DNA of 64,000 nucleotides from Porphyrobacter sp. IPPAS B-1204 (GTDB lineage: Bacteria > Pseudomonadota > Alphaproteobacteria > Sphingomonadales > Sphingomonadaceae). The stretch lies in NCBI GenBank assembly GCA_003724185.1, contig RHGM01000001.1:806001-870000 (forward strand), in the 5' to 3' direction. The notes under the pieces were generated by a model, which was given only the letters and a program-made list of their open reading frames with translations, had not been told where the DNA came from and did no database searches. The first letter of the stretch is position 1; each line of letters begins with the position of its first letter. A program made the position numbers and the translations under genes. This document shows positions 7,220-59,057 of this stretch, piece after piece.

Positions 7220-8380
7220 ATGAATTCGACAGAAAGTCGCCTGATTGACGCATTGCTCGACCTTTGGGCCGAATCGCCGACTGAAGCGGTTTCGGTTCGG
7301 GCACTGGTGCAGAAGGCAGAGACCGCCCATTCGTCGATCCATTACCACTTCGGCAATGTAGAACATTTGTATCAAAGCGCCTCAGGTGCAGCCCTCGCCA
7401 AGGCCGAGCATTGGATGGAGGCGCAATTGGCCGCGCTTGGCACGCTGGCGGTTGACCCGCTTCCCCCCGCCTTGCAGGCGTCGATCATGGCGTCGGTGAT
7501 TGCCGACTGGACGGGCGATCAGCGCCGCCTTGCGATGGCGTGGCGCCACGCGCCCGGTGCAGACTGGCAGACCGCGTGGGAGCGGTTCTGGGGCGAGGTC
7601 GCAAGGGTGATCGGCCTTGGCGACAATGCTGACACCATCGCCTGCTTTGCCGCCGGAGAAGCGGCGCGTCACCTGCTGGTGTGGCATCCGCTGCTCGACC
7701 GTGCGCTGCTTGAAGAGACCACCGCAGCATTGGTGCTGTGGTTGCGCGAGCGCCGCCTGCAGCCCGATCCTGTCCGCGCCATGTATCGCACGCGCGCGCT
7801 CAGACATTACCATGCGCCCCGGCCGCATCTTGATCGGCTGAACGACCCGATTTCCGCCGCCGCCGCCGCACTGCTGGCAGAACAGGGCCATGTCGGCGTC
7901 ACCTTCCGCGCTGTCGCTGCCCGGGCACAGGTGACGCTCGGCAAGGTCATCCACGTCTATGGGACCAAGAGTGAATTGCTGCACGCGGCCCTGTACAGCC
8001 TCTATGAACGTGAGGCGCTTCGCGGTGATGTGGAGCAGCTTGTCGCCCGGACCATCGCGCCAGACGTGATGCTGGACGAGCTGCTCAACGCCGTCCTGCG
8101 CGGTCGCCAGCCGGTGCTGGCCGCCTATGACGAGATCGAGCGGGCGATCTACAACGGCGAGGATCACGCCCCGTTGCGGGGGCTGGTGCGAGCCATGGAA
8201 GATCCGAGCGGGACATGGGCGCTCGCGCAGCTGCTTGGCGGGCTCCATCCGTCCGCGTCGCTGGTGGCGGCCTTTTCCGCGACCATCAGAGGGATCGGTT
8301 ACCGCGTTCAGCACGCAGGCGGCACGCAGGATGACCTGCGATCCGGTGCTGCGGCGGTGCTGCGTCCTTTCGCGCGTTAA
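7220..8380 (+). CDS. TetR-family protein with two HTH domains in one chain
   Basis: First HTH 'VSVRALVQKAETAHSSIHYHFGNVEHLY', second HTH 'VTFRAVAARAQVTLGKVIHVYGTKSELLHAAL'. Confidence 0.85.
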   Translation: MNSTESRLIDALLDLWAESPTEAVSVRALVQKAETAHSSIHYHFGNVEHLYQSASGAALAKAEHWMEAQLAALGTLAVDPLPPALQASIMASVIADWTGDQRRLAMAWRHAPGADWQTAWERFWGEVARVIGLGDNADTIACFAAGEAARHLLVWHPLLDRALLEETTAALVLWLRERRLQPDPVRAMYRTRALRHYHAPRPHLDRLNDPISAAAAALLAEQGHVGVTFRAVAARAQVTLGKVIHVYGTKSELLHAALYSLYEREALRGDVEQLVARTIAPDVMLDELLNAVLRGRQPVLAAYDEIERAIYNGEDHAPLRGLVRAMEDPSGTWALAQLLGGLHPSASLVAAFSATIRGIGYRVQHAGGTQDDLRSGAAAVLRPFAR

Positions 8381-8384
8381 CCGG

Positions 8385-8501
8385 TCAGCGCGCTGCAATA
8401 GTCACATAGATCTCGGCCCCGAAATCAGCGAAGCGGTCCCAAAGGACGATGACAAGCACGAGTGCGACGATGGCGATGATGATCTCTTTTCGGCGCTTCA
8501 T
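8385..8501 (-). CDS. 38-aa single-TM small membrane protein (below ORF-track size cutoff)
   Basis: MKRRKEIIIAIVALVLVIVLWDRFADFGAEIYVTIAAR*: basic N-terminus plus hydrophobic helix, translated by hand. Confidence 0.45.
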   Translation of the reverse strand: MKRRKEIIIAIVALVLVIVLWDRFADFGAEIYVTIAAR

Positions 8502-8585
8502 CTGGTTTTCTCTTGGTTGGCGTGGAGGATTCGGTTTTTCTGTAAGGCAAGGTGCCCGGTGTAAAGCGGTGTGCGCACAGGGACG

Positions 8586-9224
8586 TCAGCCAAAGGCTGC
8601 CTCGCTTTGCACCGTCAGGGCAATGCGCGGCCCCATGCCTTTCAGATAGGCCAGCCGGACAACCAGCAGCATCGCCGGTTCAATGAAGCGCGCTGCCATC
8701 AGCGGTCCGGCATCGACCACCGTGGCAGGCAGTTGGGCAAGCAGGCCCGCCACGATCCCTTTCGCCTCGCTGTCGTCACCCGCAACGAACAGGCCTGGGG
8801 CCGCGCCGGCGATGAAAGGATCGTCTGCGTGCATCAGTTCGGCGAAAGGCGGCACGCCCTTGATCACCCTCGCCCCGGGCAGCAGGCGGGCGATCTCCTC
8901 TCCGCCCGAGGTATCGCCGCCCACCAGCAGGCCCGACAGATCGGGGGCGAGCGGATTGGTGCAATCCCAGACGATCTTGCCAGCGGCCGGGCCGAGAGCG
9001 GCGAGCGCATCGCCAACCGCAGCCCACGGAACTGCGATGACAATGACATCGCCAAAGGCGGCAAGCGCTTCGGGTGAGCCATAGCCGACCCCCGCTGCCT
9101 CGGCCGCTGCGGCCACCGCCTCGGGATCGCGGCCGAACCCCAGCATGATGTCGTGCCCGGCTGCCGACAATCGCCGCGCCAGCGCTGTGCCGACATTGCC
9201 GGCGCCCAGAATGGCAATCTTCAT
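8586..9224 (-). CDS. NAD(P)-binding / F420-dependent NADP reductase-like protein
   Basis: 'MKIAILGAGNVGTALARRLSAAGHDIMLGFGRD' Rossmann motif. Confidence 0.85.
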   Translation of the reverse strand: MKIAILGAGNVGTALARRLSAAGHDIMLGFGRDPEAVAAAAEAAGVGYGSPEALAAFGDVIVIAVPWAAVGDALAALGPAAGKIVWDCTNPLAPDLSGLLVGGDTSGGEEIARLLPGARVIKGVPPFAELMHADDPFIAGAAPGLFVAGDDSEAKGIVAGLLAQLPATVVDAGPLMAARFIEPAMLLVVRLAYLKGMGPRIALTVQSEAAFG

Positions 9225-9367
9225 CGTGTCGCTCCTCATTGTTCCGGTGCCTGCCGCCGGTCTTCACGGTCGATTTATGATGTGTTGCCGCGCGAAGGTA
9301 TTTCACGTTCCGGCAATGTCCGATCTGGCGGCACTGACATCGGCAAAAACCGCGCTAGAATATCGTC

Positions 9368-10192
9368 ATGCACAACCAGCGTTTCCCAGGCAGAAGCTTG
9401 CACGGGGCTACCGTCGCGCGGGTCCATTTCACCAAGGGCGACTATGTTCATCCGGCCTCGGGACAGCTTGAACTTCGGGTGGTCAGGCGCGGTTCGTCGC
9501 AAGCCGACATCGATCTGGGCAGCGGCAGCCGCTCTGTCTTTACCCGGCCGGGTGACGTGTTGCTTTCGCTTCCCGACCGGGCAACCCGGTTTCGGATATC
9601 CGACAACCGCGAGGTCTCGATCCTCGCAATTGCTGCGCCGCAAGCGCTGGATTGGATAAGGCAGGCCGGGGGATCGGACCTTGCCGAACTGCAACCGCTA
9701 TCGCGCAAGCCGATCCGTATCCCGCTGATCGCCAGCCTGATCGACAGGCTGGAGCAACCGGACGAAGCGTCTGCGCAGATCGATGAGGCGATCGTGCTCG
9801 TGATCCTCGCCGAATGCCTGCGCACCGCGCGGCGGCTGCGGGCAAGGCAGGGTGCAACGGTACTGTCCCACGCGGAAATCCTCAGGATCATCGGCAGGAT
9901 CGAAGCAGAGCTCGACAGGCCCGTATCGGCGGACGCGCTTGCCGTGCAGGCGGGCGTTTCGCGCCGCACCTTCAGCGCGACATTCAAGGAGGCAACCGGC
10001 CTGCCCTTCCACCAATATGTGCTGCAGCTGCGGGTCGAACGGGCGGTGCAATTGCTGACCAGCAGCGACCTTGCCCTGCCGCAAATCGCCGTGCGGTGCG
10101 GCTTTGCCCATCAGGCGCACATGAGCCGGATGATCAGCCGCTTGAAGGGAGAACCGCCCGGCGCCATCCGCAGGCGCAGCCAATCAGGATAG
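9368..10192 (+). CDS. AraC-family transcriptional regulator
   Basis: C-terminal AraC HTH pair 'LAVQAGVSRRTFSATFKEATGLPFHQYVLQLRVERA...'. Confidence 0.9.
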   Translation: MHNQRFPGRSLHGATVARVHFTKGDYVHPASGQLELRVVRRGSSQADIDLGSGSRSVFTRPGDVLLSLPDRATRFRISDNREVSILAIAAPQALDWIRQAGGSDLAELQPLSRKPIRIPLIASLIDRLEQPDEASAQIDEAIVLVILAECLRTARRLRARQGATVLSHAEILRIIGRIEAELDRPVSADALAVQAGVSRRTFSATFKEATGLPFHQYVLQLRVERAVQLLTSSDLALPQIAVRCGFAHQAHMSRMISRLKGEPPGAIRRRSQSG

Positions 10193-10256
10193 AAGGCAAG
10201 CCAAAACGCCGCTTAACGCTCTGAAAAGGAAGTGCGCGCTATGGTCACACCACCAT

Positions 10257-10919
10257 TTGCAGGGGGGCCAGAACGTGGCGACAGCGGAACAGGGGCAGAC
10301 GTTTTCGGAGGCGACACGGATCTTTGATCGGTCGGTAGATTCGACCAATTTCCTGCTCGACCTGTGGTGGCTGTGGCTGCTGGTCATCGTGGTGGTGCTG
10401 GGCCTGCTGAAACTGCGCAGCCAGCATGCCCTGCTGGGCGAACTGGACGAGCGTTGCGGCGCCGCTTTCGGAGACATCGATGCCATCCTGGCAGAGCGGC
10501 ATGAACTGATCCCCAATCTGATCGCGACGACCAAGGCCTTTGCCGCACAGGAGCATCGCGTGCTGGATGATGTGATCGACGCGCGGGCCCGTGCGATGGC
10601 GTCGGCCGGCAATGCCCGGCTGGAGGCAGAATTGCAGGTGGGCCAATCGCTCAACAACCTCTGGGCCATAACCGAGAATTATCCGGAGCTGGCAAGCTCC
10701 CTGCACTTCCGCGAATTGCGGGCCGAGATGGTCCGGATGGAAGACCGGATCAATGCAGCGCGCAAGTTCTACAACCTGTCGGTCGAAGAGCTGAACGCCG
10801 TGCGCCGGGCCTTTCCGTACAACCTGATCGATGGGCTGGCCAAAACCGAACGGCACGAGAAATTCAGCCTCGGCGAGAAGCGCGCCGAATACAGCGCACC
10901 TGTCGTCGCCACGTTCTGA
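10257..10919 (+). CDS. lemA: LemA-family membrane protein
   Basis: N-terminal TM then 'ILAERHELIPNLIATTKAF', 'AARKFYNLSVEELNAVRRAFPYNLI'. Confidence 0.88.
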   Translation: MQGGQNVATAEQGQTFSEATRIFDRSVDSTNFLLDLWWLWLLVIVVVLGLLKLRSQHALLGELDERCGAAFGDIDAILAERHELIPNLIATTKAFAAQEHRVLDDVIDARARAMASAGNARLEAELQVGQSLNNLWAITENYPELASSLHFRELRAEMVRMEDRINAARKFYNLSVEELNAVRRAFPYNLIDGLAKTERHEKFSLGEKRAEYSAPVVATF

Positions 10920-10930
10920 TAGCCGCAGAC

Positions 10931-12370
10931 ATGGCTACCGAGGGCGCGGTTAACGGGGCTGCCTGGGGCGGCGTCCAGGGGTTTGTTACCTTCACGCATG
11001 ACAACCGGAACCGCTTTTTGCAGGTTTTCGGGCTGTACGTGCTGTCGCTGCACATGATCGGCGGGCTGGTGGCGATGCTGCCGCTGCTGCTTTTCGATCC
11101 CGAGCACATCATCCTCGTCGATCCGGTGGGCTATTTTGTCCGGTACGGCCTGCCGGTGACGGCGATATCCGCTTTCCTGTTCTGGCGCCTCTACACCTCG
11201 CACACCGAGGCAATCTGCCGGAAACTTGCGGTGAGGGAGGTCACGCGGATCGATGAGCGGCGGTTTGTCCGCCTGGCCGAGGAACAGTGCATCGCACTAG
11301 GTATTCGCAAGCCACGCTTCGGACTGATCGAGGTGTCCCAGCCCAACGCTTTGGCGGTGGGCGAAGGGCCGCAACGGGGCTTGATCGCGGTGACGCGGGG
11401 GTTGCTGGATCAGTTGGACGACGATGAGCTGGCGGCGGTTCTGGCCAATCTCGCCTCACAGATCCGAAACGGCGATACCAGCGTGCTCGCAGCCAACTTT
11501 GCCTTGATGCGCACCGCGGTGCTGATGCAGGTGAACAATGCGTTCCGCATCGAGGATTGGCGGCAGCTGATCATCGTAGTGTTTCTGCCGCCGATGCTGA
11601 CGATCCTGCTGCTGTCGGGCATGATCACCAAGGCATCGCTGGAAATCGCCCGAATGGCGCGGCGCAGCGTGAAGCTATCGCGTTTTCACATCGCCGATGC
11701 CGAGGCGATCCGCGTGACGCACCGGCCGGATGCGCTGCATTCGGCGCTGGTGAAGATAGGCGGCAAAGGCGCGTTTCCGGGCAGCGCGGTGTTTGACGAT
11801 GTTCTTTTTGACGGGCGCAGCGACACGGATGGGGGGAGCCATCCAGCGGTGATTGACCGGCTGAAGGCGATTGCGCGGCTTGGCGGTCCGATGATGCAAC
11901 CCGGCCGCGCTCGGCGTGATACGCGCGATGGTGTGGCTGTGCCGGGTGCTGGCGGGTTGGCGGATGGCCGGGTCGGCTTTGGCAGGCGCTACACCGCGGC
12001 CCATTTCCAGCCGGTTGCACCAGCCGAGGAAAAACCCCGCGAAAAGCCGCCGGTGATGGAGAACGATGCCCTGCTGGTGATGATGCTGACAGACTGGAAG
12101 GGCTACAAGGCCTATGTTGCGCAGTGCAACGACTGGTTCGAATGGCGGACAAATGATGGCCGCAATCTGTTCGGGCTCAAGCCGGAACTGCGGCTGCCGG
12201 TTGCGGCGGTGACGGCGGGGCTGTTGGTGTTGTACTGGCCAGCCGATGGCAACTGGCAGAAGCTTGCCAACCGCTTCAATCCCGTGTCGATGACGACCAT
12301 GTTCTCGCAACTGGATACGGGCAGAACATTCTGCACCCCGTCATCGGGCAAGAACGAGGATTGCGCCTGA
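10931..12370 (+). CDS. M48-like membrane protein with degenerate zinc site (putative pseudoprotease)
   Basis: M48 architecture adjacent to LemA; HEXXH position reads N-L-A-S-Q ('DDDELAAVLANLASQIRNGDT'). Confidence 0.75.
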   Translation: MATEGAVNGAAWGGVQGFVTFTHDNRNRFLQVFGLYVLSLHMIGGLVAMLPLLLFDPEHIILVDPVGYFVRYGLPVTAISAFLFWRLYTSHTEAICRKLAVREVTRIDERRFVRLAEEQCIALGIRKPRFGLIEVSQPNALAVGEGPQRGLIAVTRGLLDQLDDDELAAVLANLASQIRNGDTSVLAANFALMRTAVLMQVNNAFRIEDWRQLIIVVFLPPMLTILLLSGMITKASLEIARMARRSVKLSRFHIADAEAIRVTHRPDALHSALVKIGGKGAFPGSAVFDDVLFDGRSDTDGGSHPAVIDRLKAIARLGGPMMQPGRARRDTRDGVAVPGAGGLADGRVGFGRRYTAAHFQPVAPAEEKPREKPPVMENDALLVMMLTDWKGYKAYVAQCNDWFEWRTNDGRNLFGLKPELRLPVAAVTAGLLVLYWPADGNWQKLANRFNPVSMTTMFSQLDTGRTFCTPSSGKNEDCA

Positions 12371-12375
12371 GCTGT

Positions 12376-12780
12376 TTACGGCACGACCTTGCGGCCGAAC
12401 ACAGGCCCGCTGCGGGTCTGCTGGGGTTCGGAAGGCGTATCGGATGCCGGTGAGGCCGCTTCGGACGCCTGCCGCTTTGCAAGGTGCCGGGCAATCACCG
12501 CATCGGCATCGAAGTCGGAGGGCTGGTCTTCGCCCCAGCTGGAGGCATTGCGGGATTTGGCAGAAGGGGCGCTTGCGGAAAATGACATGCGCAGCAGGCT
12601 GATCAGGCCGCCCACCCCGGCAAGCAGTGCAAGGGCGCCAGTGCCAATGATGGTCGGCATGCCCGGACCAAACTCGCCCATGTCATACCACATGGATGCC
12701 GCATAAGCCCATGTCGCGGCCAGCCCGAGTCCAATGAAGGCCCGGAACATATGCCCCATGTTCTGGAACAGCTTCAACAT
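12376..12780 (-). CDS. hypothetical membrane protein
   Basis: 134 aa, two hydrophobic segments, polar C-terminal tail; convergent with upstream gene. Confidence 0.6.
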   Translation of the reverse strand: MLKLFQNMGHMFRAFIGLGLAATWAYAASMWYDMGEFGPGMPTIIGTGALALLAGVGGLISLLRMSFSASAPSAKSRNASSWGEDQPSDFDADAVIARHLAKRQASEAASPASDTPSEPQQTRSGPVFGRKVVP

Positions 12781-13052
12781 GATGTTATCCCTTCACAGCT
12801 CGCCCGATCTTGCCCCGTCAATATCCGGCGACGCGGTTAACATCCTCATAATGAGCCTGAATCCTGGGTTTGCCGGAAGCCAGCGCGGGATTTCCCATCC
12901 ATTCCGCCGCGCGGATCGCCAGAATATGATGCAGGGTTCACGGACGCCCCGCCGCTGGGAAGCCCCAGCGCAAAAGCCATCTGGCCCCGCTGCCGTCCGA
13001 AGCCGCTTCCTCGCCCAGAGCCTGAATGCGGCGTCTAGACATCAGATCTGGC

Positions 13053-14471
13053 TCAACGCATGATTTCATAAGGTACGACGCCACGCTGCAAAGGATGGGT
13101 GGAGATCAGCTGGTCACTCGGGGGATAGGCGCGTTGCTCGCAATCCGGGCGCGGGCAGATCCGGCACGACACGCCAATGGGCGTCACTGCTCGCTCTGAA
13201 GCCAGATCGATGCTGTCAGCATAAACGAATTCACCTGAGTGCTGAACCTCACAGCCAAGCGCAACGGCATAGCGCCGTGGGTTGCGGTCGAAACGGCCCG
13301 ACCCCTTGATAAGCCCCTTGGCGATTGAGACATATCGGACACCATCGGGTGTCTCGGCCAGCTGAACCTGTATCCGATCAGGTATCGCGGCCGCCTCGTG
13401 CACGATCCACAAGGGGCAAGCGCCGCCAAAGCGGGCAAACTGAAAACGGGTGGCACTATGTCGCTTGGTAATGTTGCCGGCCATATCGACCCTACAGAAG
13501 AAGATCGGCAAGCCGCGCGCTCCTTCGCGCTGCATCGTGGAAAGGCGATGGCAGGTCTGTTCGAAACTGGTCTGATACAGCATCGCCAGTCGGTCGACGT
13601 CGTGCCGGAATTCGCGCGCGGTTTTGCGGAAGTGCCCATAGGGCATTAGGAGTGCCCCCGCGGCATAATTGGCAAGTCCGACGGTCAGCAGCCCGCGTGC
13701 GACTTCGCTCCGCAGCTGCGCAGTGTCGGCAATCATGCCAATCGCTTCGTCCAGCATAATCAGGGCAACATGGTAGGCAATCTGAAACCGGATGCTTGCG
13801 GTCGGTTGTCCGGCATCAATCACCAGCACCTTACCGGCTTCATCGAAGCGACGCAGGGAGTCCGACGGCCGGATTTCGACATCGATCGCATGATCTTCGC
13901 GCAGATGCCGGCACAATGCCTCGGTGCTGGGCACATAATCTGATCCACCAATCGTTGCGGCGAGATCTTCTGCCGCGCGATCAATCTGATCGACATAGTT
14001 GTTGGACAGATGGAACCAGTCGCGCACCTCCTCCCACGGCAGACGTGCGCCATTGTTGGCGTCAACAGTGAGCGTCTCATCAACCATTTCGAGACGTTGG
14101 CTCGCGCGACGGAATGCGCCGTACAGGTCCACGAAGCGCCGGGCAAAGGTCGGCTGCTGCTCAGCCAACCGCGCCAAAGCAGCCGGATCAATCGGGCTAT
14201 CGAACATCGGATCCCCCACCGCCTCTCTCAACAAGACCGATAGGTGTTCGGTCTCCTCTTGCGGAAAATCCTGCCATTCGAGCGGAAAAAGGGCTGCTAG
14301 TCGCTCGATCAGACGCGGCGTCAGCGGTCGATCGTCATGTTCGAGTTGGCTGAGATACGATGGGCTGATCTCCAGCCGCCGCGCAAGTTCGGCCTGCATC
14401 AATCCGCGGCGTTCACGCAAATGGCGCAGCTGCACTCCTGCAAAGATCCTTCGTCCGGCGCTCATCGTCAT
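13053..14471 (-). CDS. XRE-family regulator, ScfR/RamB-type (HTH + IrrE-like + C-terminal Cys domain)
   Basis: 'GVQLRHLRERRGLMQAELARRLEISPSYLSQLEHDDRPLTPRL', C-terminal 'SCRICPRPDCEQRA'; start chosen at MTMSAGRR. Confidence 0.85.
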   Translation of the reverse strand: MTMSAGRRIFAGVQLRHLRERRGLMQAELARRLEISPSYLSQLEHDDRPLTPRLIERLAALFPLEWQDFPQEETEHLSVLLREAVGDPMFDSPIDPAALARLAEQQPTFARRFVDLYGAFRRASQRLEMVDETLTVDANNGARLPWEEVRDWFHLSNNYVDQIDRAAEDLAATIGGSDYVPSTEALCRHLREDHAIDVEIRPSDSLRRFDEAGKVLVIDAGQPTASIRFQIAYHVALIMLDEAIGMIADTAQLRSEVARGLLTVGLANYAAGALLMPYGHFRKTAREFRHDVDRLAMLYQTSFEQTCHRLSTMQREGARGLPIFFCRVDMAGNITKRHSATRFQFARFGGACPLWIVHEAAAIPDRIQVQLAETPDGVRYVSIAKGLIKGSGRFDRNPRRYAVALGCEVQHSGEFVYADSIDLASERAVTPIGVSCRICPRPDCEQRAYPPSDQLISTHPLQRGVVPYEIMR

Positions 14472-14478
14472 GTCCTGA

Positions 14479-14508
14479 TTTGCAAATTGCTGGTTTGCAA
14501 CTTTGCAA
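14479..14508. promoter_or_regulatory. three TTTGCAA repeats (14479, 14494, 14502), candidate RamB/ScfR-type operator
   Basis: TTTGCAAATTGCTGGTTTGCAACTTTGCAA; GCAACTTTGCAA resembles the RamB consensus (AACTTTGCAAA) from established knowledge. Confidence 0.55.
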
Positions 14509-14578
14509 TTTAACATTGGACTGATGGTGCAGCCTAAGCAAGGTTGCGTTCGGGATAGTTTGCTACGGGAGACTGCAA

Positions 14579-15388
14579 GTGGCCACCAATGTCCTCGCGC
14601 TTCACCAGTTCGACCGCGCCCCTCACGTTCGTGGAGGCAGAAATTGCGGGGTTATCTGCGTGCCTTCCGAAATCAGAGCGGTTGCACAGCGCCTGGCCGA
14701 CGAATTGCGGGAGGATGGCCTACGGGCAATGGTCTGGCCTGATCTTTCAACGCTGAGCGAACCAGTTGACGCCGATGGCCAACCGCTCAATGCCGAGGTT
14801 TTCGGTTGGGCCGAAGATGAACTTTCCCCATGGCGAAACGTCGACAAGGCGCTGCGCTCGCCGCTGCTGCGCGCAGCCCGGGTAACGAGCGAGCCCTTTT
14901 GCATTAGTCGACGCGGCATTCGCAGCCGGACCGTCAACCGCCTGCTCAATCAAATCAACTTGCTGGATCTGGAGCACGCTCCCGCGCCGCAGTCCGCGAT
15001 TGTCTTTCCCGTGCACATGCCCTTGGGACAGATCGGCGCCGCCATCCTGACTGCACCGGGCGGTGGGGAGGCAGACCTATCGGCCCTCTTCCGCACTAGC
15101 GTCGACCGGCTGGCAGCACCGGTGTGGCAGTTCGTGACTGGCTATGTCAGCGTGACTCGTGATGAACGCTACCTGCCAACCGAAGGCCTGCTTACCACAC
15201 GCGAAATCGAATGCCTGAGCTGGGTGGCGCACGGCAAGACAGACTACGAAATCAGCATTATTCTGGGGTGCAGCCACGCGGGGGTGAGATACCACGTCGG
15301 CCGCGCCTGCGCGAAGCTGGGCGCCGTCAACCGGGCGCAGTCGGTGTTCAGGGCTGCACAGCTGGGCTATATCGGCGTTCCGCTGTAG
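14579..15388 (+). CDS. LuxR-family transcriptional regulator
   Basis: C-terminal LuxR HTH 'LTTREIECLSWVAHGKTDYEISIILGCSHAGVRYHVGRACAKLGAVNRAQ'. Confidence 0.88.
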   Translation: MATNVLALHQFDRAPHVRGGRNCGVICVPSEIRAVAQRLADELREDGLRAMVWPDLSTLSEPVDADGQPLNAEVFGWAEDELSPWRNVDKALRSPLLRAARVTSEPFCISRRGIRSRTVNRLLNQINLLDLEHAPAPQSAIVFPVHMPLGQIGAAILTAPGGGEADLSALFRTSVDRLAAPVWQFVTGYVSVTRDERYLPTEGLLTTREIECLSWVAHGKTDYEISIILGCSHAGVRYHVGRACAKLGAVNRAQSVFRAAQLGYIGVPL

Positions 15389-21286: not shown

Positions 21287-21316
21287 TGCGTATCTCAAAT
21301 TGACATTTTTTACGCA
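21287..21316. promoter_or_regulatory. cluster operator site B: TGCGT-N20-ACGCA
   Basis: TGCGTATCTCAAATTGACATTTTTTACGCA; flanked to perfect 8-bp inverted repeat AATGCGTA/TACGCATT; 61 bp upstream of TonB receptor. Confidence 0.8.
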
Positions 21317-27268: not shown

Positions 27269-27298
27269 TGCGTTATCTTATAGCCCTATCGTTACGCA
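27269..27298. promoter_or_regulatory. cluster operator site C: TGCGT-N20-ACGCA
   Basis: TGCGTTATCTTATAGCCCTATCGTTACGCA between divergent OYE operon and SDR. Confidence 0.8.
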
Positions 27299-28137: not shown

Positions 28138-29220
28138 TCAGGCCGCCGTTTCCCACGGTGCGGACTTCGTGCCGCGGGTGGTATAACGCCCGTTGACCCG
28201 CGTCTGAAAGGTCTGGGCCTGCGCGCGCGGATTGTAGAACTGGCGATACCAGATCCGCACCTTGTCGAACGGGCCATCGCCGCGCACCATCATCGGATGG
28301 ATGCAGGGCCGCTTATTCGACCAGATTTCGAAATCCTGCGCGAAGGCATCGACGCCAGCTTCCTCGTAGGACGAAGCGAGCGCGCGGTCTTCATCGGTCG
28401 GCTCGGCATTGTCGACCTTGACCATCAGCCCGTACCAGACCTTGATCACGCCATCGTCGACTGGCGTATGCGCGATCAGCATGTGCGACGGGTTGGCTCC
28501 GACCATCACCGACTGAAGAATGCCGGGACCGGTGTACCAGGTGTCGTTGGTCATCGGCTCGCCCCCATCAGCGGCGAGCGTCTTGTGCCCGGCTGACAGG
28601 ATCTGGCGGCAGACGTGATCCTCGAATGCGTTCTCGAACGATTCCATCGCGATCGATCCGTGCACGGGTTCAAGGTGGGCCTTGTCCGCCATGTTATCGA
28701 CCACTTCCTGCGGGTGGCAGGCCAGTTCGCCCAGCTCGCGCACGTTCCAGTTCACCCAGTGCGGGGCGTCATAGGATTCGAACGGCGGCAAGTCGTGATC
28801 CGGCTCCATCCCTTCGGGATCATGCCAGGCCCACAGGCACCCTGCCCGTTCCACCACCTTCCAGCTTTTGACGCAGGCCGATTTGGGGATCGGCGCCGGC
28901 GAATAGGGGATCTGGTTGACCTTGCCATCAGGTCCAAAGCGCCAGCCGTGATAGGGGCAGCGGATATTGTCACCCTGAACGTGCTCGCCATCCTTGACGA
29001 CATAGGAGGTGGTATTGCGCGCAAGGTGCGTGCCCATGTGCGGGCAATAGGCTTCGATCATGAAGACCTTGCCACTCTGCCCCCCACGGTAGAGCACCAT
29101 GTCTTCACCGAAGTAGCGCACCGCGAGCGGCGTTGCGCCCACTTCGTCGGACCGCGCAACCATGAACCAGCCGCGCGGATAGGTGAATTCACCCAGACCA
29201 TAATCTGCGGTCGTCGCCAT
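28138..29220 (-). CDS. Rieske non-heme iron oxygenase, KshA-like
   Basis: Rieske 'CPHMGTHL...CPYHGWRF'; Fe site 'DNMADKAHLEPVH'. Confidence 0.88.
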   Translation of the reverse strand: MATTADYGLGEFTYPRGWFMVARSDEVGATPLAVRYFGEDMVLYRGGQSGKVFMIEAYCPHMGTHLARNTTSYVVKDGEHVQGDNIRCPYHGWRFGPDGKVNQIPYSPAPIPKSACVKSWKVVERAGCLWAWHDPEGMEPDHDLPPFESYDAPHWVNWNVRELGELACHPQEVVDNMADKAHLEPVHGSIAMESFENAFEDHVCRQILSAGHKTLAADGGEPMTNDTWYTGPGILQSVMVGANPSHMLIAHTPVDDGVIKVWYGLMVKVDNAEPTDEDRALASSYEEAGVDAFAQDFEIWSNKRPCIHPMMVRGDGPFDKVRIWYRQFYNPRAQAQTFQTRVNGRYTTRGTKSAPWETAA

Positions 29221-29319: not shown

Positions 29320-29349
29320 CGCGTAATTCAGATTATCGAAAATTACGCA
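29320..29349. promoter_or_regulatory. cluster operator site D: CGCGT-N20-ACGCA
   Basis: CGCGTAATTCAGATTATCGAAAATTACGCA; about 100 bp upstream of Rieske oxygenase, right arm inside 3' end of Lrp gene. Confidence 0.75.
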
Positions 29350-29846
29350 TCATCACCCGCAACATCAAGACGCGCACGGTCAGCCTCGGTGATCCGCACC
29401 ACCCGCGCATTGTATTTCACCGTCTTGACCGCAATCGAGGTCTCGACGTGGTGCACGCCGGGCATCGACAGGATCTGATCGGAGGCCAGTTCGAGCAGAT
29501 TATCGAGCGAGTTGAACAGACAGATCGCCAGCACGTTGAATCGCCCCATGGTGATCATCACCGCATTGACCGAAGGCAGTTCGGCAATGCGTTCGGCCAC
29601 GCCGCGCGCCTCGCTGACATTCACCTCCACCCCGATGAACGCCATCCGGGCCGAATCTGCGAGGCCGAAGCTGGTGATCGCCGTGAACGAGATCAGGCCA
29701 TCCATCTGCAAACGCTTGATCCGGCCGCGTACCGTTCCTTCGGTCACGCCAAGGTCGATCGCGATCTTGCGGTTAGAAACGCGCGCGTCCCGCGCCAGCA
29801 CTTCGATCAGCTGGCGATCGAGATCATCGAGTTGCGGTACGCTCAT
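29343..29846 (-). CDS. Lrp/AsnC-family transcriptional regulator
   Basis: 'LDDLDRQLIEVLARDARVSNRKIAIDLGVTEGTVRGRIKRLQ'. Confidence 0.92.
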   Translation of the reverse strand: MSVPQLDDLDRQLIEVLARDARVSNRKIAIDLGVTEGTVRGRIKRLQMDGLISFTAITSFGLADSARMAFIGVEVNVSEARGVAERIAELPSVNAVMITMGRFNVLAICLFNSLDNLLELASDQILSMPGVHHVETSIAVKTVKYNARVVRITEADRARLDVAGDDA

Positions 29847-30322
29847 TCTTCGCCCCTCGCATCGATCGGCGCGACATCGAACTTGTATTTGATGACGTCG
29901 ACCGCAATCGCCGGGACCATTGAACGAATACCGTCGATCTTGCCGAATTTCGTCAGGAACAGGTCAGGCAGCTCGTCAAAATCGCGCAGCACCACCAGCA
30001 TGTCGATATCATAGCGACCGGTGACCAGATGGGCGGCGAAGACTTCGGGGAACTGGACCAGTTCCTCGACCACATCAACTGCCGGCCGGCCGTCAACCTC
30101 GATCGCGACCTCCATCAAGACGTTGTAACCATGCGCGGAAAAATCCGACACGGCGACCACGCGCAGCTTGTTGGCGTCTTCCATGCGCCGGATGCGCGCC
30201 GAAACTGTCGCTGCGGTCAGGCCGAGCGTGTTGGCGATCTGCTGGTTGGTCGCCCGGCCATTCAGGCGCAACTGTTCGACAATTGCCCGGTCTACATCAT
30301 CAATCGAGAAGTCATTTGACAT
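29843..30322 (-). CDS. Lrp/AsnC-family transcriptional regulator
   Basis: 'IDDVDRAIVEQLRLNGRATNQQIANTLGLTAATVSARIRRME'; stop overlaps start of 29343..29846. Confidence 0.92.
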   Translation of the reverse strand: MSNDFSIDDVDRAIVEQLRLNGRATNQQIANTLGLTAATVSARIRRMEDANKLRVVAVSDFSAHGYNVLMEVAIEVDGRPAVDVVEELVQFPEVFAAHLVTGRYDIDMLVVLRDFDELPDLFLTKFGKIDGIRSMVPAIAVDVIKYKFDVAPIDARGEE

Positions 30323-30350
30323 GGTGTCTCACAAACCCCGAATTTTGCAG

Positions 30351-30380
30351 TGCGTCAAGCTGACCACCGTTTGCGACGCG
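30351..30380. promoter_or_regulatory. cluster operator site at Lrp/AsnC pair: TGCGT-N20-ACGCG
   Basis: TGCGTCAAGCTGACCACCGTTTGCGACGCG, 28 bp upstream of Lrp/AsnC start. Confidence 0.65.
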
Positions 30381-30381
30381 A

Positions 30382-31647
30382 TCATTGTGCACCAGCCAGC
30401 GCGATACGGTCGCGTTCCAAGCGGCTGGCGGCAAGAAAGGCGAGCAGCGAGGCGAGCACGCCGACCGGCACGATGATCGTCAAGGCCAACTGCAGGGAGG
30501 CCGCGTTGTCGCCGAAGGCCTGGCTCAGCGCACCGGTGAGCCAGGGCCCGATGAAGTAACCGATGAGGGTGTTCACCGCCACGAACAGCGCAGTGGCGCT
30601 GGCCCGGTAGGCAGACGGCAGCATGTATTGCAGTGCTGCAAACAGCCCGACTGACCACCCGCCGCCAAGCAGCCCGCAAGGGATCGCCAACCACTTCGCC
30701 ATCACGAAGGTTGGTGCCCAGACGGTGGCGATCACCAGCAGGGTCGCAGCCCCGAGCGCCATTGCCGAAAGCAGCGCGGGCCAGGCCCGGCTGCGGCGCG
30801 ACATCCGGTCCGCCAGAAAGCCAAAGCCGAGCATTCCGACCAGTCCCGAGAGGCCGAAATTGAGCGCAAATGCGGTTTTGGCCGCCACCGGATCAATCGC
30901 ATAGCTGCGGGCGAACAGCTCCGGCCCCCAGTAACCGAAAGATATGCCTGACATAACACCAAGACCAAAGCCCATTGCCATCAGCATGAAGCTGGGCGTG
31001 CGCACCAGACGGGCAACCAAGGCACCCAGCGGGATGATCACCTGTTCCTCGCCTTCGACCTGCCCTTCGCGCGGCGGCTCACGGATCAGGGCAAGGGCGA
31101 TCAGACCCAGTGCTACACCGGGAATCCCGATGGCGAAAAAGGCTGCGCGCCAACCATGTTCGGCTGCGATCATCGGCCCGCCCGCCTGCCCGCCAATCTG
31201 GCCGATATAGGTCGCAAGGCCGAGGATCGCGAAAGCCATCCCGCGCCGTTCCGGCTTGAAATAGTCGGACAGCAGCGAATAGGCGGGAGCGACAAAGGCC
31301 GCTTCGCCAAGCCCGACCGCAACCCGCGCCAGAGCGAGTGTGACGGGGCCGGTCGCAAGCCCTGTCGCCGCAGTCGCAAGGCTCCACATCATGCACCCGC
31401 CGGCAATGATCCGCACCCGCGATGATCGGTCCGCCAGCCGCGCAAAAGGCACGCCCATCAGGACATAGAACACAACGAAGGCCGGCCCCATCAGCAGACC
31501 CATGAGGTTGTCGCCGACCCCGAATTCGGCCTTGATCGGCCCCACCAACCCGGTCAGCAAATAGCGGTCGGCAAAGTTGAAGATATAGATCGTCAGCAGG
31601 ATGCCAAGCACCAGCCACGGGTTCGAACGGGGGCGCGCGGTGTCCAT
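30382..31647 (-). CDS. MFS transporter
   Basis: About 12 hydrophobic segments, 'ADRYLLTGLVGPIKAEFGV', 'GLGEAAFVAPAYSLLSDYF'; ATGA overlap with upstream SDR. Confidence 0.9.
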   Translation of the reverse strand: MDTARPRSNPWLVLGILLTIYIFNFADRYLLTGLVGPIKAEFGVGDNLMGLLMGPAFVVFYVLMGVPFARLADRSSRVRIIAGGCMMWSLATAATGLATGPVTLALARVAVGLGEAAFVAPAYSLLSDYFKPERRGMAFAILGLATYIGQIGGQAGGPMIAAEHGWRAAFFAIGIPGVALGLIALALIREPPREGQVEGEEQVIIPLGALVARLVRTPSFMLMAMGFGLGVMSGISFGYWGPELFARSYAIDPVAAKTAFALNFGLSGLVGMLGFGFLADRMSRRSRAWPALLSAMALGAATLLVIATVWAPTFVMAKWLAIPCGLLGGGWSVGLFAALQYMLPSAYRASATALFVAVNTLIGYFIGPWLTGALSQAFGDNAASLQLALTIIVPVGVLASLLAFLAASRLERDRIALAGAQ

Positions 31648-32405
31648 CAGTCGCGCTTGATCATGCCGCCGTTGACGTGCCAGACCTGCCCGTTGACCCA
31701 CTCCCCGTCGTCAGAAGCAAGAAACGCGACAGCGCCGGCAATGTCTTCAGCCTTGCCAAGCCGGGTGTGCGGAACGCCCTTGAGGGCGGACTCCACATAT
31801 TCGTCCGAAAGGTGCTGCTTGACCGCTTCGGTCAGCACCACGCCGGGGCTGACGCCGTTGGCGCGAATGCCCTTCTTGCCGTATTTCGTGGCGACATGGC
31901 GCACCAGCGCGTGAATGGCGTTCTTGGTCATCGGATAGGCGACCTGAAAGGCATTGCCGCCAATCGCTGCGCCGGACGACGTGTAGATCATCGCCCCGTT
32001 GCCGCGTTCGAGCATCACCGGAAGCGCAGCCTGCGTCGCGAAGAAGTGGCTCTTGGTGTTGATAGCGAAAGAACGGTCGAGGACTTCTTCGGTGCAGTTC
32101 AAAGCGTCAATATCACCTTCGGTCCCGCCGGCGAGGTTGGAGTGATAGAAGTCGAGCCCGCCGAATTCTTCCAGCGCAGCCGCAACGATGGCCTTTTGGG
32201 ATTCGGCGCTGGTTCCGTCGAGATAGACCCCGATCGCGCGCCCACCAGCGGTGCGGATGGCCTCGGCAGTTTCCTTTGCCCAGTCCTCGGCGATGTCACC
32301 GATGACCACTGCAGCCCCTTCCTCGGCCAGGCGCCGTGCCGTGGCCGCGCCGATCCCGCGGCCGCCTCCGGCAACAATGCCCACCTTGCCCTGCAATCCG
32401 CGCAT
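31647..32405 (-). CDS. SDR-family oxidoreductase
   Basis: 'GKVGIVAGGGRGIGAATARRLAEEGA', 'YPMTKNAIHALVRHVATKYG'. Confidence 0.9.
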   Translation of the reverse strand: MRGLQGKVGIVAGGGRGIGAATARRLAEEGAAVVIGDIAEDWAKETAEAIRTAGGRAIGVYLDGTSAESQKAIVAAALEEFGGLDFYHSNLAGGTEGDIDALNCTEEVLDRSFAINTKSHFFATQAALPVMLERGNGAMIYTSSGAAIGGNAFQVAYPMTKNAIHALVRHVATKYGKKGIRANGVSPGVVLTEAVKQHLSDEYVESALKGVPHTRLGKAEDIAGAVAFLASDDGEWVNGQVWHVNGGMIKRD

Positions 32406-39534: not shown

Positions 39535-40404
39535 TCAGTACACGGCGGCTGGGTTCTTCGGGCGCGGGCTGCCGAGCATCTCGCGGTAGCTGGGCTTGGC
39601 CTTGCCGCGATCGGTCACGCCCAGTTCCTGAGCAATCTCCGCCCCGATCAGGGTCTGCCCGGACAGTTCGTCGCGATTGGCGGAGCTGGCGATGGCATCG
39701 ATGATATGGGCGGTGAATTCGGGGTTCTCCGCCGCCTCGATGAAGCCTTCATATTGCTCTGGATTGGTCTTCTGCGCGATCAGCGAACGCTCGGTTACAA
39801 GCGGGCCCATCCAGATCGACACCGCGACGACGCCGGTGCCGCGCAGGTCATGCTCCATGTCATGCGCAAACTTGTCGACCCCGGCCTTTTGCGCGCCGTA
39901 AGCCGGGCCGTGCATGTAACACGAACCACCAAAGGACGAACCGAAGGCAATCACGCCCGAACCCTGCGCCACCATCATCCGCGCCGCATGCCAGCTCGCC
40001 ACATAGGCCGAGCGCAAGCCCACATCGAGGATCTTCACCGCGTCGAGATCCTTCTCCCAGAAGGGCATCTTCTCGATCAGCTGGTGGTGGATATAGGTCG
40101 CGTTGTTGACCAGCACATCGAGCTGGCCCTGCTCGCGCTCAATCTGGGCGAACAGCGCGGCGACCTGCGCATCATCGGCATGGTCGCACATGACGGCAAT
40201 GCCGGTGCCGCCCGCCGCAGTCACTTCCGCTGCGGTCTCAGCGACAGTGCCGGGCAGCACTGTGCCATCCCAGCCCTTGGCGTCACCCGGCGCAACGGTG
40301 CGGCCAGTGACATAGACCGTGTAGCCCAGCTCACCAAAACCGCGGGCGATACCCCGACCTGCCCCGCGGCTCGCGCCGGTGACAAGCGCCACCTTCGATG
40401 CCAT
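39535..40404 (-). CDS. SDR-family oxidoreductase
   Basis: 'SKVALVTGASRGAGRGIARGFGELG', 'YGAQKAGVDKFAHDM'. Confidence 0.9.
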   Translation of the reverse strand: MASKVALVTGASRGAGRGIARGFGELGYTVYVTGRTVAPGDAKGWDGTVLPGTVAETAAEVTAAGGTGIAVMCDHADDAQVAALFAQIEREQGQLDVLVNNATYIHHQLIEKMPFWEKDLDAVKILDVGLRSAYVASWHAARMMVAQGSGVIAFGSSFGGSCYMHGPAYGAQKAGVDKFAHDMEHDLRGTGVVAVSIWMGPLVTERSLIAQKTNPEQYEGFIEAAENPEFTAHIIDAIASSANRDELSGQTLIGAEIAQELGVTDRGKAKPSYREMLGSPRPKNPAAVY

Positions 40405-40463
40405 GCAACTCCCTCCCACGATTCGACGTGTTTACGCCTTCAACCGGCACTATACCTGCGTCT

Positions 40464-40493
40464 TGCGAATTTCATAGACAATTTTTTTACGCA
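40464..40493. promoter_or_regulatory. cluster operator site E: TGCGA-N20-ACGCA
   Basis: TGCGAATTTCATAGACAATTTTTTTACGCA, 60 bp upstream of the 30.4-40.4 kb operon. Confidence 0.7.
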
Positions 40494-42034: not shown

Positions 42035-42064
42035 TTCGTAATTTGAAACGTCAAATATTACGCG
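42035..42064. promoter_or_regulatory. cluster operator site F: TTCGT-N20-ACGCG
   Basis: TTCGTAATTTGAAACGTCAAATATTACGCG between divergent SDR operons; left arm has one mismatch. Confidence 0.6.
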
Positions 42065-45439: not shown

Positions 45440-45469
45440 CGCGTAGATTATGAGATATAAAATTACGCA
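45440..45469. promoter_or_regulatory. cluster operator site G: CGCGT-N20-ACGCA
   Basis: CGCGTAGATTATGAGATATAAAATTACGCA, 27 bp upstream of TonB receptor. Confidence 0.8.
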
Positions 45470-55058: not shown

Positions 55059-56273
55059 TTACAGGAAGGGATTGAGCGGAGCCTCGCCCAGCATCGTGCC
55101 GATCGCATCTCCCGTGCGGTTCGCCGGATCATTGGCGACATGGGCACGGCCAGCGTGGAGATCGAGCCACGGCTGGATGATGTCGCTGGTCATGTAGATC
55201 GCGCGCCCGCCCAGCAGTTGCACGACATCATCGATCAGGCTGGCCAGCCGTCGCACCACAGTGCTTGACTGATAGGTGAAGAATGCCCGCTTCTCCATCG
55301 GGATGTCCTCACCGCGCTCGGCATAGGCCATCAGATCATCAAAGGTCAGACGCAGGGTGGTTTCCATCTCCCGCTTCTCGGCAATCGCCCGCGCCAGCGC
55401 GGCGTGCAGGATCGGATCCTGCTTGGAAGCCTTGCCGGTATTGGTCGAGATACGGTCCTGCATGATCGCCATCGCCGCATTGATCGCCGCCTGCGCCCCG
55501 CCGAATGCGGCAGTGGAAACAGAGCGGGTAAAGACCTGCGCCCAGGGCAGACGGTACAGCGGGCCGGTATTCACTTCCTGTCCGGGGTTCTGGCACAGGA
55601 ACCCATCAATCGAACGGTGGGTGCGGTAATCCGGGACGAAGGCATCGTCGACGATGATATCGTGGCTGCCCGTCCCTTGCAGGCCGAAGGTGTGCCAGGC
55701 GTTCTCGTCAATGGTGTAATCGCTGCGCGGCAACAGGAAGGTGCGCATCTCGGCAGGCGTGCCATCATCCTTGGGCGGACAGAACGCCCCGAGCAAGATC
55801 CAGCCGGAGTGGACCGACCCGGTCGAAAAGCCCCACCGGCCCGACAGGCGGAAACCACCCTCGACATGGGCGACCTTGCCGACCGGTTGATAGGTCGAAC
55901 AAACCAGCATGTCGGGATCATCGCCCCACACCTCTTGCTGGGCCTTCTCGTGGAACAGCGCCATTTCATAGGGGTGGCAGCCCAGCACGCCATACATCCA
56001 ACCGGTCGACATGCAGCCTTCTGCCAGCACCTTCTGCACTTCGAAGAAGTCGTTGGGGTGCATTTCATAGCCGCCGAAATTGGCGGGCTGAAGGATGCGG
56101 AAGAAGCCTGCCGCCTTCATCTCGGCGATGGTTTCCGCCGGGATGTTGCGCGCCCGCGTGCAGTCCTTGGCCCGTGCCTTCAGCGTCGGCACCATCGCCC
56201 GGGCGCGATCAAGCAACTCCTGCGCGCTCGGCTTCACACCCTCGATATCAATCCGCTTCACAGCAACGCCCAT
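55059..56273 (-). CDS. hsaA: acyl-CoA-dehydrogenase-fold flavin monooxygenase (3-HSA hydroxylase type)
   Basis: 'TIAEMKAAGFFRILQPANFGGYE', 'LSGRWGFSTGSVHSGWILLGAF'; adjacent to hsaB/hsaD. Confidence 0.87.
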   Translation of the reverse strand: MGVAVKRIDIEGVKPSAQELLDRARAMVPTLKARAKDCTRARNIPAETIAEMKAAGFFRILQPANFGGYEMHPNDFFEVQKVLAEGCMSTGWMYGVLGCHPYEMALFHEKAQQEVWGDDPDMLVCSTYQPVGKVAHVEGGFRLSGRWGFSTGSVHSGWILLGAFCPPKDDGTPAEMRTFLLPRSDYTIDENAWHTFGLQGTGSHDIIVDDAFVPDYRTHRSIDGFLCQNPGQEVNTGPLYRLPWAQVFTRSVSTAAFGGAQAAINAAMAIMQDRISTNTGKASKQDPILHAALARAIAEKREMETTLRLTFDDLMAYAERGEDIPMEKRAFFTYQSSTVVRRLASLIDDVVQLLGGRAIYMTSDIIQPWLDLHAGRAHVANDPANRTGDAIGTMLGEAPLNPFL

Positions 56274-56332: not shown

Positions 56333-56362
56333 CTCGTAAAATTTTTTATCGTTTGATACGCA
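56333..56362. promoter_or_regulatory. cluster operator site H: CTCGT-N20-ACGCA
   Basis: CTCGTAAAATTTTTTATCGTTTGATACGCA between divergent hsaA and SDR/hsaC operons; left arm degenerate. Confidence 0.55.
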
Positions 56363-58176: not shown

Positions 58177-59057
58177 GCACGCTCGACAAACGCATGTCCG
58201 CCGCCGACATCGTCAGCCGCCTCCAAAGCGGCATGACGCTCGGCATCGGCGGCTGGGGTCCTCGCCGCAAGCCGATGGCGCTGGTGCGCGAAATTTTGCG
58301 TTCCGACCTGACCGATCTCACCATCGTTTCCTATGGCGGCCCGGATGTCGGGATGCTGTGCGCAGCGGGCAAGGTGAAGAAGCTGATCTTCGCCTTCGTC
58401 TCGCTCGATGCGATTCCGCTCGAACCATGGTTCCGCAAAAGCCGTGAGGCCGGCGCTATCGAGGTGCTCGAACTCGACGAGGGCATGTTCCAGTGGGGCC
58501 TGAAAGCCGCCGCGTTCCAGCTGCCGTTCCTGCCGACGCGGGTCGGGCTCGGCACCGACCTGATCGAACTGGGCGGGCTGAAGACGGTGCAATCGCCCTA
58601 TGACGACGGTGAGGTGCTGGTCGCCATGCCCGCGCTCAATCTCGATGCGGCGCTGGTCCATGTCCAGCGCTGCGATCATCGCGGCAATGTGCAGGCCTTG
58701 GGGCCGGACACCTATTACGATGAATGGTTCGCCAAAGCGGCGAAGGAGTGCTTCGTATCCTGCGAGGAACTCGTCCCCGCGATGGAGGACGCTTATCCCC
58801 AAGACGCCCGAGCCAACCTGTTCGAACGCTGCTTCGTCACCGGCGTGACCGAAGCGAAAGGCGGCGCGCATCCGACCTCGCTGCCGCCCGACTATGGCTG
58901 GGACATGGGCTGGTTCAAGCGTTACGCCGCTGCCGCGAAAGACCCGGGTGACTGGGCAGCGGTGGCCGGGCAATTCGTCGGCGCGAGCGAGGCGGAATAC
59001 CTCGCTTCGGTCGGCGGTATGGAGGCGGTCGGGGCGCTCCCCCTGCCGGTGTTCTGA
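58173..59057 (+). CDS. ipdA: CoA-transferase-family subunit A, IpdA-like ring hydrolase
   Basis: 'SRLQSGMTLGIGGWGPRRKPMALVREI'; coupled to subunit B in steroid locus. Confidence 0.85.
   Translation: MSTLDKRMSAADIVSRLQSGMTLGIGGWGPRRKPMALVREILRSDLTDLTIVSYGGPDVGMLCAAGKVKKLIFAFVSLDAIPLEPWFRKSREAGAIEVLELDEGMFQWGLKAAAFQLPFLPTRVGLGTDLIELGGLKTVQSPYDDGEVLVAMPALNLDAALVHVQRCDHRGNVQALGPDTYYDEWFAKAAKECFVSCEELVPAMEDAYPQDARANLFERCFVTGVTEAKGGAHPTSLPPDYGWDMGWFKRYAAAAKDPGDWAAVAGQFVGASEAEYLASVGGMEAVGALPLPVF

Follow-up and report, generated by a model that had tools for sequence, protein, structure and literature searches.

The tandem genes lrp1 and lrp2 of Porphyrobacter sp. IPPAS B-1204 probably form an obligately paired regulator of the catabolic cluster in which they lie, predicted to act as heterodimers on an operator array with three-turn spacing and likely to repress the cluster until a ligand arrives. 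We analyzed them in a window of 64,000 nucleotides, the whole stretch of DNA considered here; the genes, the operator motif, its conservation, and its spacing were read directly from the sequence. The pair and the genes next to it were as follows.

29843–30322, minus strand: lrp1, 159 aa, Lrp/AsnC family, first gene of the pair (Pfam, orthologues, RAM motif TGRYD)
29343–29846, minus strand: lrp2, 167 aa, Lrp/AsnC family (Pfam; near-invariant recognition helix TEGTVRGRIKRL, altered RAM motif GRFN)
30382–31701, minus strand: MFS transporter (Pfam), upstream of lrp1
28138–29220, minus strand: KshA-like Rieske oxygenase (KshA_C domain), candidate target of the operator at 29320

Both proteins matched PF13404 (HTH_AsnC) and PF01037 (AsnC_trans_reg) above the Pfam cut-offs, i.e., both possess the N-terminal AsnC-type HTH and the C-terminal RAM domain of the Lrp/AsnC family. 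These domains bear out the two separate Lrp/AsnC genes described in the initial annotation, and the 4-bp overlap reported there was found at 29843–29846 (ATGA). The TGxxD-type motif of the ligand pocket is canonical in Lrp1 (TGRYD) and replaced by GRFN in Lrp2. Orthologues of lrp1 ranged from 72 to 94% identity. The nearest solved structures belong to Lrp-family proteins, e.g., 7fby, 9w4v (PH0140), and PH1519.

According to domain and model matches, the gene neighborhood is a steroid/bile-salt 9,10-seco cluster. It encodes KshA-like Rieske proteins, an HsaA-like oxygenase, an HsaF-type 4-hydroxy-2-oxovalerate aldolase, and KstD-like flavoproteins, as well as an amidase, CoA ligases, TonB receptors, and SnoaL proteins. 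Among the genes scanned between 19635 and 63998, no DNA-binding domains were recognized besides those of the Lrp pair. The earlier proposal of the pair as a candidate cluster-wide regulator therefore holds: from the first operator to the last, no DNA-binding proteins besides Lrp1 and Lrp2 were found, and the pair is the best candidate. Genes for TetR, AraC, ScfR-type, and LuxR regulators are located at 7220–15388 of the window, upstream of the steroid cluster and outside the operator-bearing segment.

The loose pattern YGCGT-N20-ACGCR, from which the operator was originally recognized, was enriched in the window (six occurrences against 0.88 expected; 0 of 100 shuffles), with 18 matches in the whole genome. 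A symmetric matrix was built from 89 distinct sites (about 100 orthologous sites) of orthologous loci in 33 other genomes and further relatives, and the refined consensus was TWTGCGTA-N18-TACGCAWA. In more than 30 orthologous loci palindromes occupied matching places, with the arms kept and the spacers diverged. Seven sites of the window scored 24–43 bits, while the next-best score was 2.6 and shuffled maxima averaged 2.7. They lie at promoters of TonB receptors, kshA, hsaA, and SDR operons, and are listed below with their scores and without strand.

21287–21316: operator, score 35.7, between an enoyl-CoA hydratase gene (minus) and a TonB receptor gene (plus)
27269–27298: operator, score 41.3, between divergent start codons that lie 11 and 18 bp away (gap of 59 bp)
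29320–29349: operator CGCGTA-N18-TACGCA, score 36.2, between the lrp2 stop and the KshA-like Rieske gene
40464–40493: degenerate operator, score 30.0, 44 bp upstream of the SDR gene 39535–40419
42035–42064: degenerate operator, score 24.2, between divergent SDR genes; third half-site at +63 bp, ATTGCGTTTT
45440–45469: operator, score 42.7, between a SnoaL gene (minus) and a TonB receptor gene (plus); third half-site at −63 bp
56333–56362: degenerate operator, score 24.1, upstream of the hsaA-like oxygenase gene 55059–56273 (minus; HsaA model match)

The site at 29320, after lrp2 and before kshA, was kept at the same place in most orthologues. The enrichment of the pattern in the window was confirmed. 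The initial annotation had missed the degenerate sites at 40464, 42035, and 56333; the pattern copy at 58511 did not pass the matrix and was rejected as an operator. In the whole genome, all five operator matches with no more than two mismatches fell inside this cluster. At three mismatches there were 12 matches against 8 in the control, and since these numbers are close, weaker matches elsewhere in the genome mean little. The DNA code of the pair is probably the TTTGCGTA half-site, with half-sites three helical turns apart marking seven promoters of the cluster as well as promoters of many relatives.

We compared the distribution of the operator and of the pair among 301 genomes of the family. 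At least three operator matches (both strands) were found in 30 of the 36 genomes with an lrp1-like gene (E ≤ 1e-20) and in 4 of the 265 genomes without it. Genomes that lacked such a pair and had KshA-type relatives of weaker similarity only (e.g., G013, G017, and G072) gave no operator matches. Three genomes (G059, G086, and G208) had the Rieske marker at 56–58% identity, distant pairs only, and 0–2 operator matches; G275 had a pair and five operator matches but no Rieske match at the threshold. The pair and the bile cluster are only partly separable by this comparison, because some tandem pair was present wherever the bile-type Rieske marker reached 53% identity. An operator was located within 300 bp of 46 of the 73 tandem pairs, distant ones included; e.g., the distant pair L095 is operator-flanked among TonB, diacylglycerol-kinase (DAGK), and beta-lactamase-like genes. 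This co-occurrence across genomes, together with the same half-site beside distant paralogous pairs, speaks for the pair as the regulator.

No recognized operator was found within 10 kb of the pairs L087–L089, L092, L093, L101, L102, L109, and L113; therefore, not every pair uses the operator code locally. Relaxed NNCGTA patterns gave nothing convincing in the pair loci without sites. In L087–L089, L092, and L093, the recognition helix of Lrp2 is the same or similar, yet a recognized operator is missing within about 10 kb. Some lrp2-like genes stand alone, 70–130 bp downstream of a bile-type operator (L114:9807–10271 and L115:10058–10567), in Sphingobium-like genomes that carry full pairs as well.

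The tandem pair was present in about 70 loci (73 counted), and the order lrp1-then-lrp2 was found in every one. Distance matrices of Lrp1 and Lrp2 correlated with r = 0.96 (permuted maximum 0.30), a value that owes part to shared descent. Because the tandem order is invariant and the two genes co-diverge, an Lrp1:Lrp2 heteromer is likely. In Lrp2, identity was 0.67 in the HTH and 0.43 in the RAM domain; mean identity of the recognition helix was 0.84 in Lrp2 versus 0.67 in Lrp1. Most simply, recognition of GCGTA would be the task of Lrp2, and the response to the ligand that of Lrp1.

Among 101 non-redundant operators analyzed for the arrangement of half-sites, 31 matches to a third half-site were located at precisely 63 bp from the arm of like orientation, while offsets had 0.86 matches on average. 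With a four-base tolerance, it was present in 46 of the 101 operators and on both sides in none of them; exactly one outer half-site in these 46 operators and two in none suggest three dimers per complex. In the window, the third half-site was clear for only three of the seven operators. Half-site centers were spaced by 25 and 38 bp, in addition to 63 bp, and we infer that these distances reduce to dimers placed in alternating orientation on a lattice of 31.5 bp, or three turns, presuming a distance of 3.25 bp between GCGTA and the dimer dyad. The dyad so placed falls in the AT-rich TWT beside GCGTA, and the opposite side gave only a weak C-rich signal. Such an asymmetric 15-bp site, with GCGTA on one side, is as expected for a heterodimer. 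Provided that the pair is the binder, the sites are multiple and in helical register, as is characteristic of the Lrp/AsnC family. Among Lrp proteins, three-turn spacing and AT-rich centers have been described, as have three dimers that wrap about 100 bp of DNA (PMC2995911); an alternating 31.5-bp array would fit wrapping of this type.

Binding, heterodimer formation, the ligand, and the sign of control are what we infer, in the following way. The genes lrp1 and lrp2 would constitute an obligate Lrp/AsnC pair dedicated to this catabolic cluster, and their products probably assemble into heterodimers in which Lrp2 is predicted to contact the conserved GCGTA half-site. Lrp1, with its canonical RAM ligand motif, would give a weaker half-contact and probably senses an intermediate of bile-salt degradation. 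The dimers would occupy the 30-bp operator every 31.5 bp in alternating orientation, often with the third half-site 63 bp off, and the array may wrap about 70–100 bp of promoter DNA. Until the ligand arrives, the cluster is most likely kept repressed by the complex.

It is unlikely that Lrp2 alone binds the operators as a homo-oligomer, with Lrp1 being a functionally separate regulator that shares the transcript. The conserved recognition helix does belong to Lrp2, and the solo lrp2-like genes of L114 and L115 have operators upstream; however, the pairing and its order are near invariant, both genes co-diverge, and a symmetric homodimer would not require GCGTA to be confined to one side of the inferred dyad, as it is in this asymmetric motif. 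Still more improbable is the binding of the palindromes by another regulator, either of the AraC, LuxR, TetR, or ScfR type at 7.2–15.4 kb or encoded elsewhere, with the Lrp pair as a passenger. Genes of these four types do exist upstream in the window, and control by AraC or TetR was proposed for the bile genes of Caenibius (PMC12882949). Nevertheless, none of them lies inside the operator-bearing segment, the half-site also accompanies distant Lrp pairs whose gene contexts are unrelated, and it occurs in a second geometry, and the multi-site lattice of 63 bp is ill-suited to a simple dimeric TetR protein.

With the Lrp1–Lrp2 pair as the preferred binder, the position of the operators near start codons suggests repression. 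The distances were 11 and 18 bp at 27269 and 13–60 bp at most other targets. Promoter hexamer matching near the operators gave an ambiguous result, so that repression rests on position; it is considered most likely because the operators are 11–60 bp from start codons at most targets. Activation by the bound pair, known for some Lrp proteins, is less likely: in its favor, the operator at 29320 is 99 bp upstream of kshA and that at 42035 is just upstream of a TTGACA-like element, but most operators have the short distances given above, one of them in a divergent gap of 59 bp.

A palindrome upstream of lrp1 had been taken for a copy of the operator through which the pair might regulate itself. 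The literal YGCGT-N20-ACGCR sequence is indeed present there, 28 bp 5' of the lrp1 ATG and ending just short of the MFS stop, but it is not a true operator copy.

30351–30380, without strand: palindrome of the lrp promoter, score −4.0, not conserved; a chance match outside the system

Its score on the matrix of orthologous sites is at background, against 24–43 for the seven window sites, and it lacks the A/T positions that define the operator motif. No strong site was found before lrp1 in any orthologous bile-type locus; only L025 had a site there, weak (score 17) and placed differently. Since 30351 scores as background and orthologues have no site at this position, direct autoregulation of the pair is unsupported, and the palindrome was ruled out as an autoregulatory operator. 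A conserved operator at the lrp1 promoter is thus absent from this pair, while operators directly before the pair do exist in other clades (L094, L095, L096, L098, and L111). A run of minus-strand genes starts with the SDR gene 39535–40419 and ends with MFS-lrp1-lrp2, so feedback could be indirect; here it is more likely to proceed through the operator at 40464, ahead of this run.

Where pairs lacked the usual operator, a blind (de novo) search for inverted repeats around them revealed the same half-site facing outward, ACGCA-N32-TGCGT, in 10 copies in L098, L110, L111, and L112. Most of them lie directly before lrp1 or after lrp2, and examples beside a distant clade of tandem pairs are L111:9924–9965 and L112:10420–10461. 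Genome-wide, everted sites were concentrated in the pair regions of the same genomes, with few or none in nine comparison genomes. In a spacing count of perfect inverted repeats in non-coding DNA, the operator signal was swamped by terminators. Tentatively, obligate heteromeric Lrp regulators may form an expanded family in sphingomonads, with Lrp2 keeping a fixed TTTGCGTA code and Lrp1 diverging; individual clades would pick convergent N18–20 or everted N32 neighbors of the alternating 31.5-bp lattice, giving separate regulons with one half-site.

A literature search for tandem Lrp pairs in catabolic clusters returned only one paper, of 2026, which describes the contiguous Lrp/AsnC genes NCHOL11_RS15865/RS15860 in the bile-salt cluster of Sphingobium sp. 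Chol11 (PMC12882949). Matched by description, two contiguous Lrp/AsnC genes in a bile-salt cluster as here, these are very probably the same pair as lrp1-lrp2. Its authors relate the pair to amino-acid metabolism and describe neither an operator nor a regulon or test. In the literature searched, mostly open-access, no account of the operator, of the lattice, or of the pair family was found.

The HTH and RAM domains are shared with E. coli Lrp, AsnC, archaeal FL11, Ss-LrpB, and BarR, and multi-site operators at three-turn spacing, as in the present array, are common to Lrp/AsnC regulators (PMC2995911). The pair differs from these in comprising two diverged paralogues in a fixed order across many genomes and in having a predicted cluster-specific catabolic regulon; its half-site shows strong conservation, in contrast to the degenerate sites described for Lrp. 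The predicted array resembles that of Ss-LrpB of Sulfolobus, of which three dimers in register wrap about 100 bp (PMC2995911); that protein is homomeric and autoregulatory, while here the orientation alternates and the predicted unit is a heterodimer. The proteins belong to a known family; what is new is their obligate pairing, combined with a half-site that stays fixed while its geometry varies.

Steroid regulons of actinobacteria are under the cluster-wide control of KstR/KstR2, regulators of the TetR family, via a conserved palindrome. Such control of a steroid catabolic regulon is also predicted for the Lrp pair; however, KstR/KstR2 belong to another protein family with compact palindromes, in contrast to the wide N18–N20 multi-site operators found here. 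The TetR_N domain was absent from both Lrp1 and Lrp2 according to Pfam, and the TetR gene of the window (7220–8380) is outside the predicted regulon.

If the proposed reading is true, it would provide a regulator, an operator code, and a regulon for environmental bile-salt degradation, and the operator could be used for finding more target genes in other sphingomonads. It would also be a rare case of an Lrp-type nucleoprotein array legible from sequence, and would imply the rule that geometry, not half-site sequence, separates paralogous regulators.
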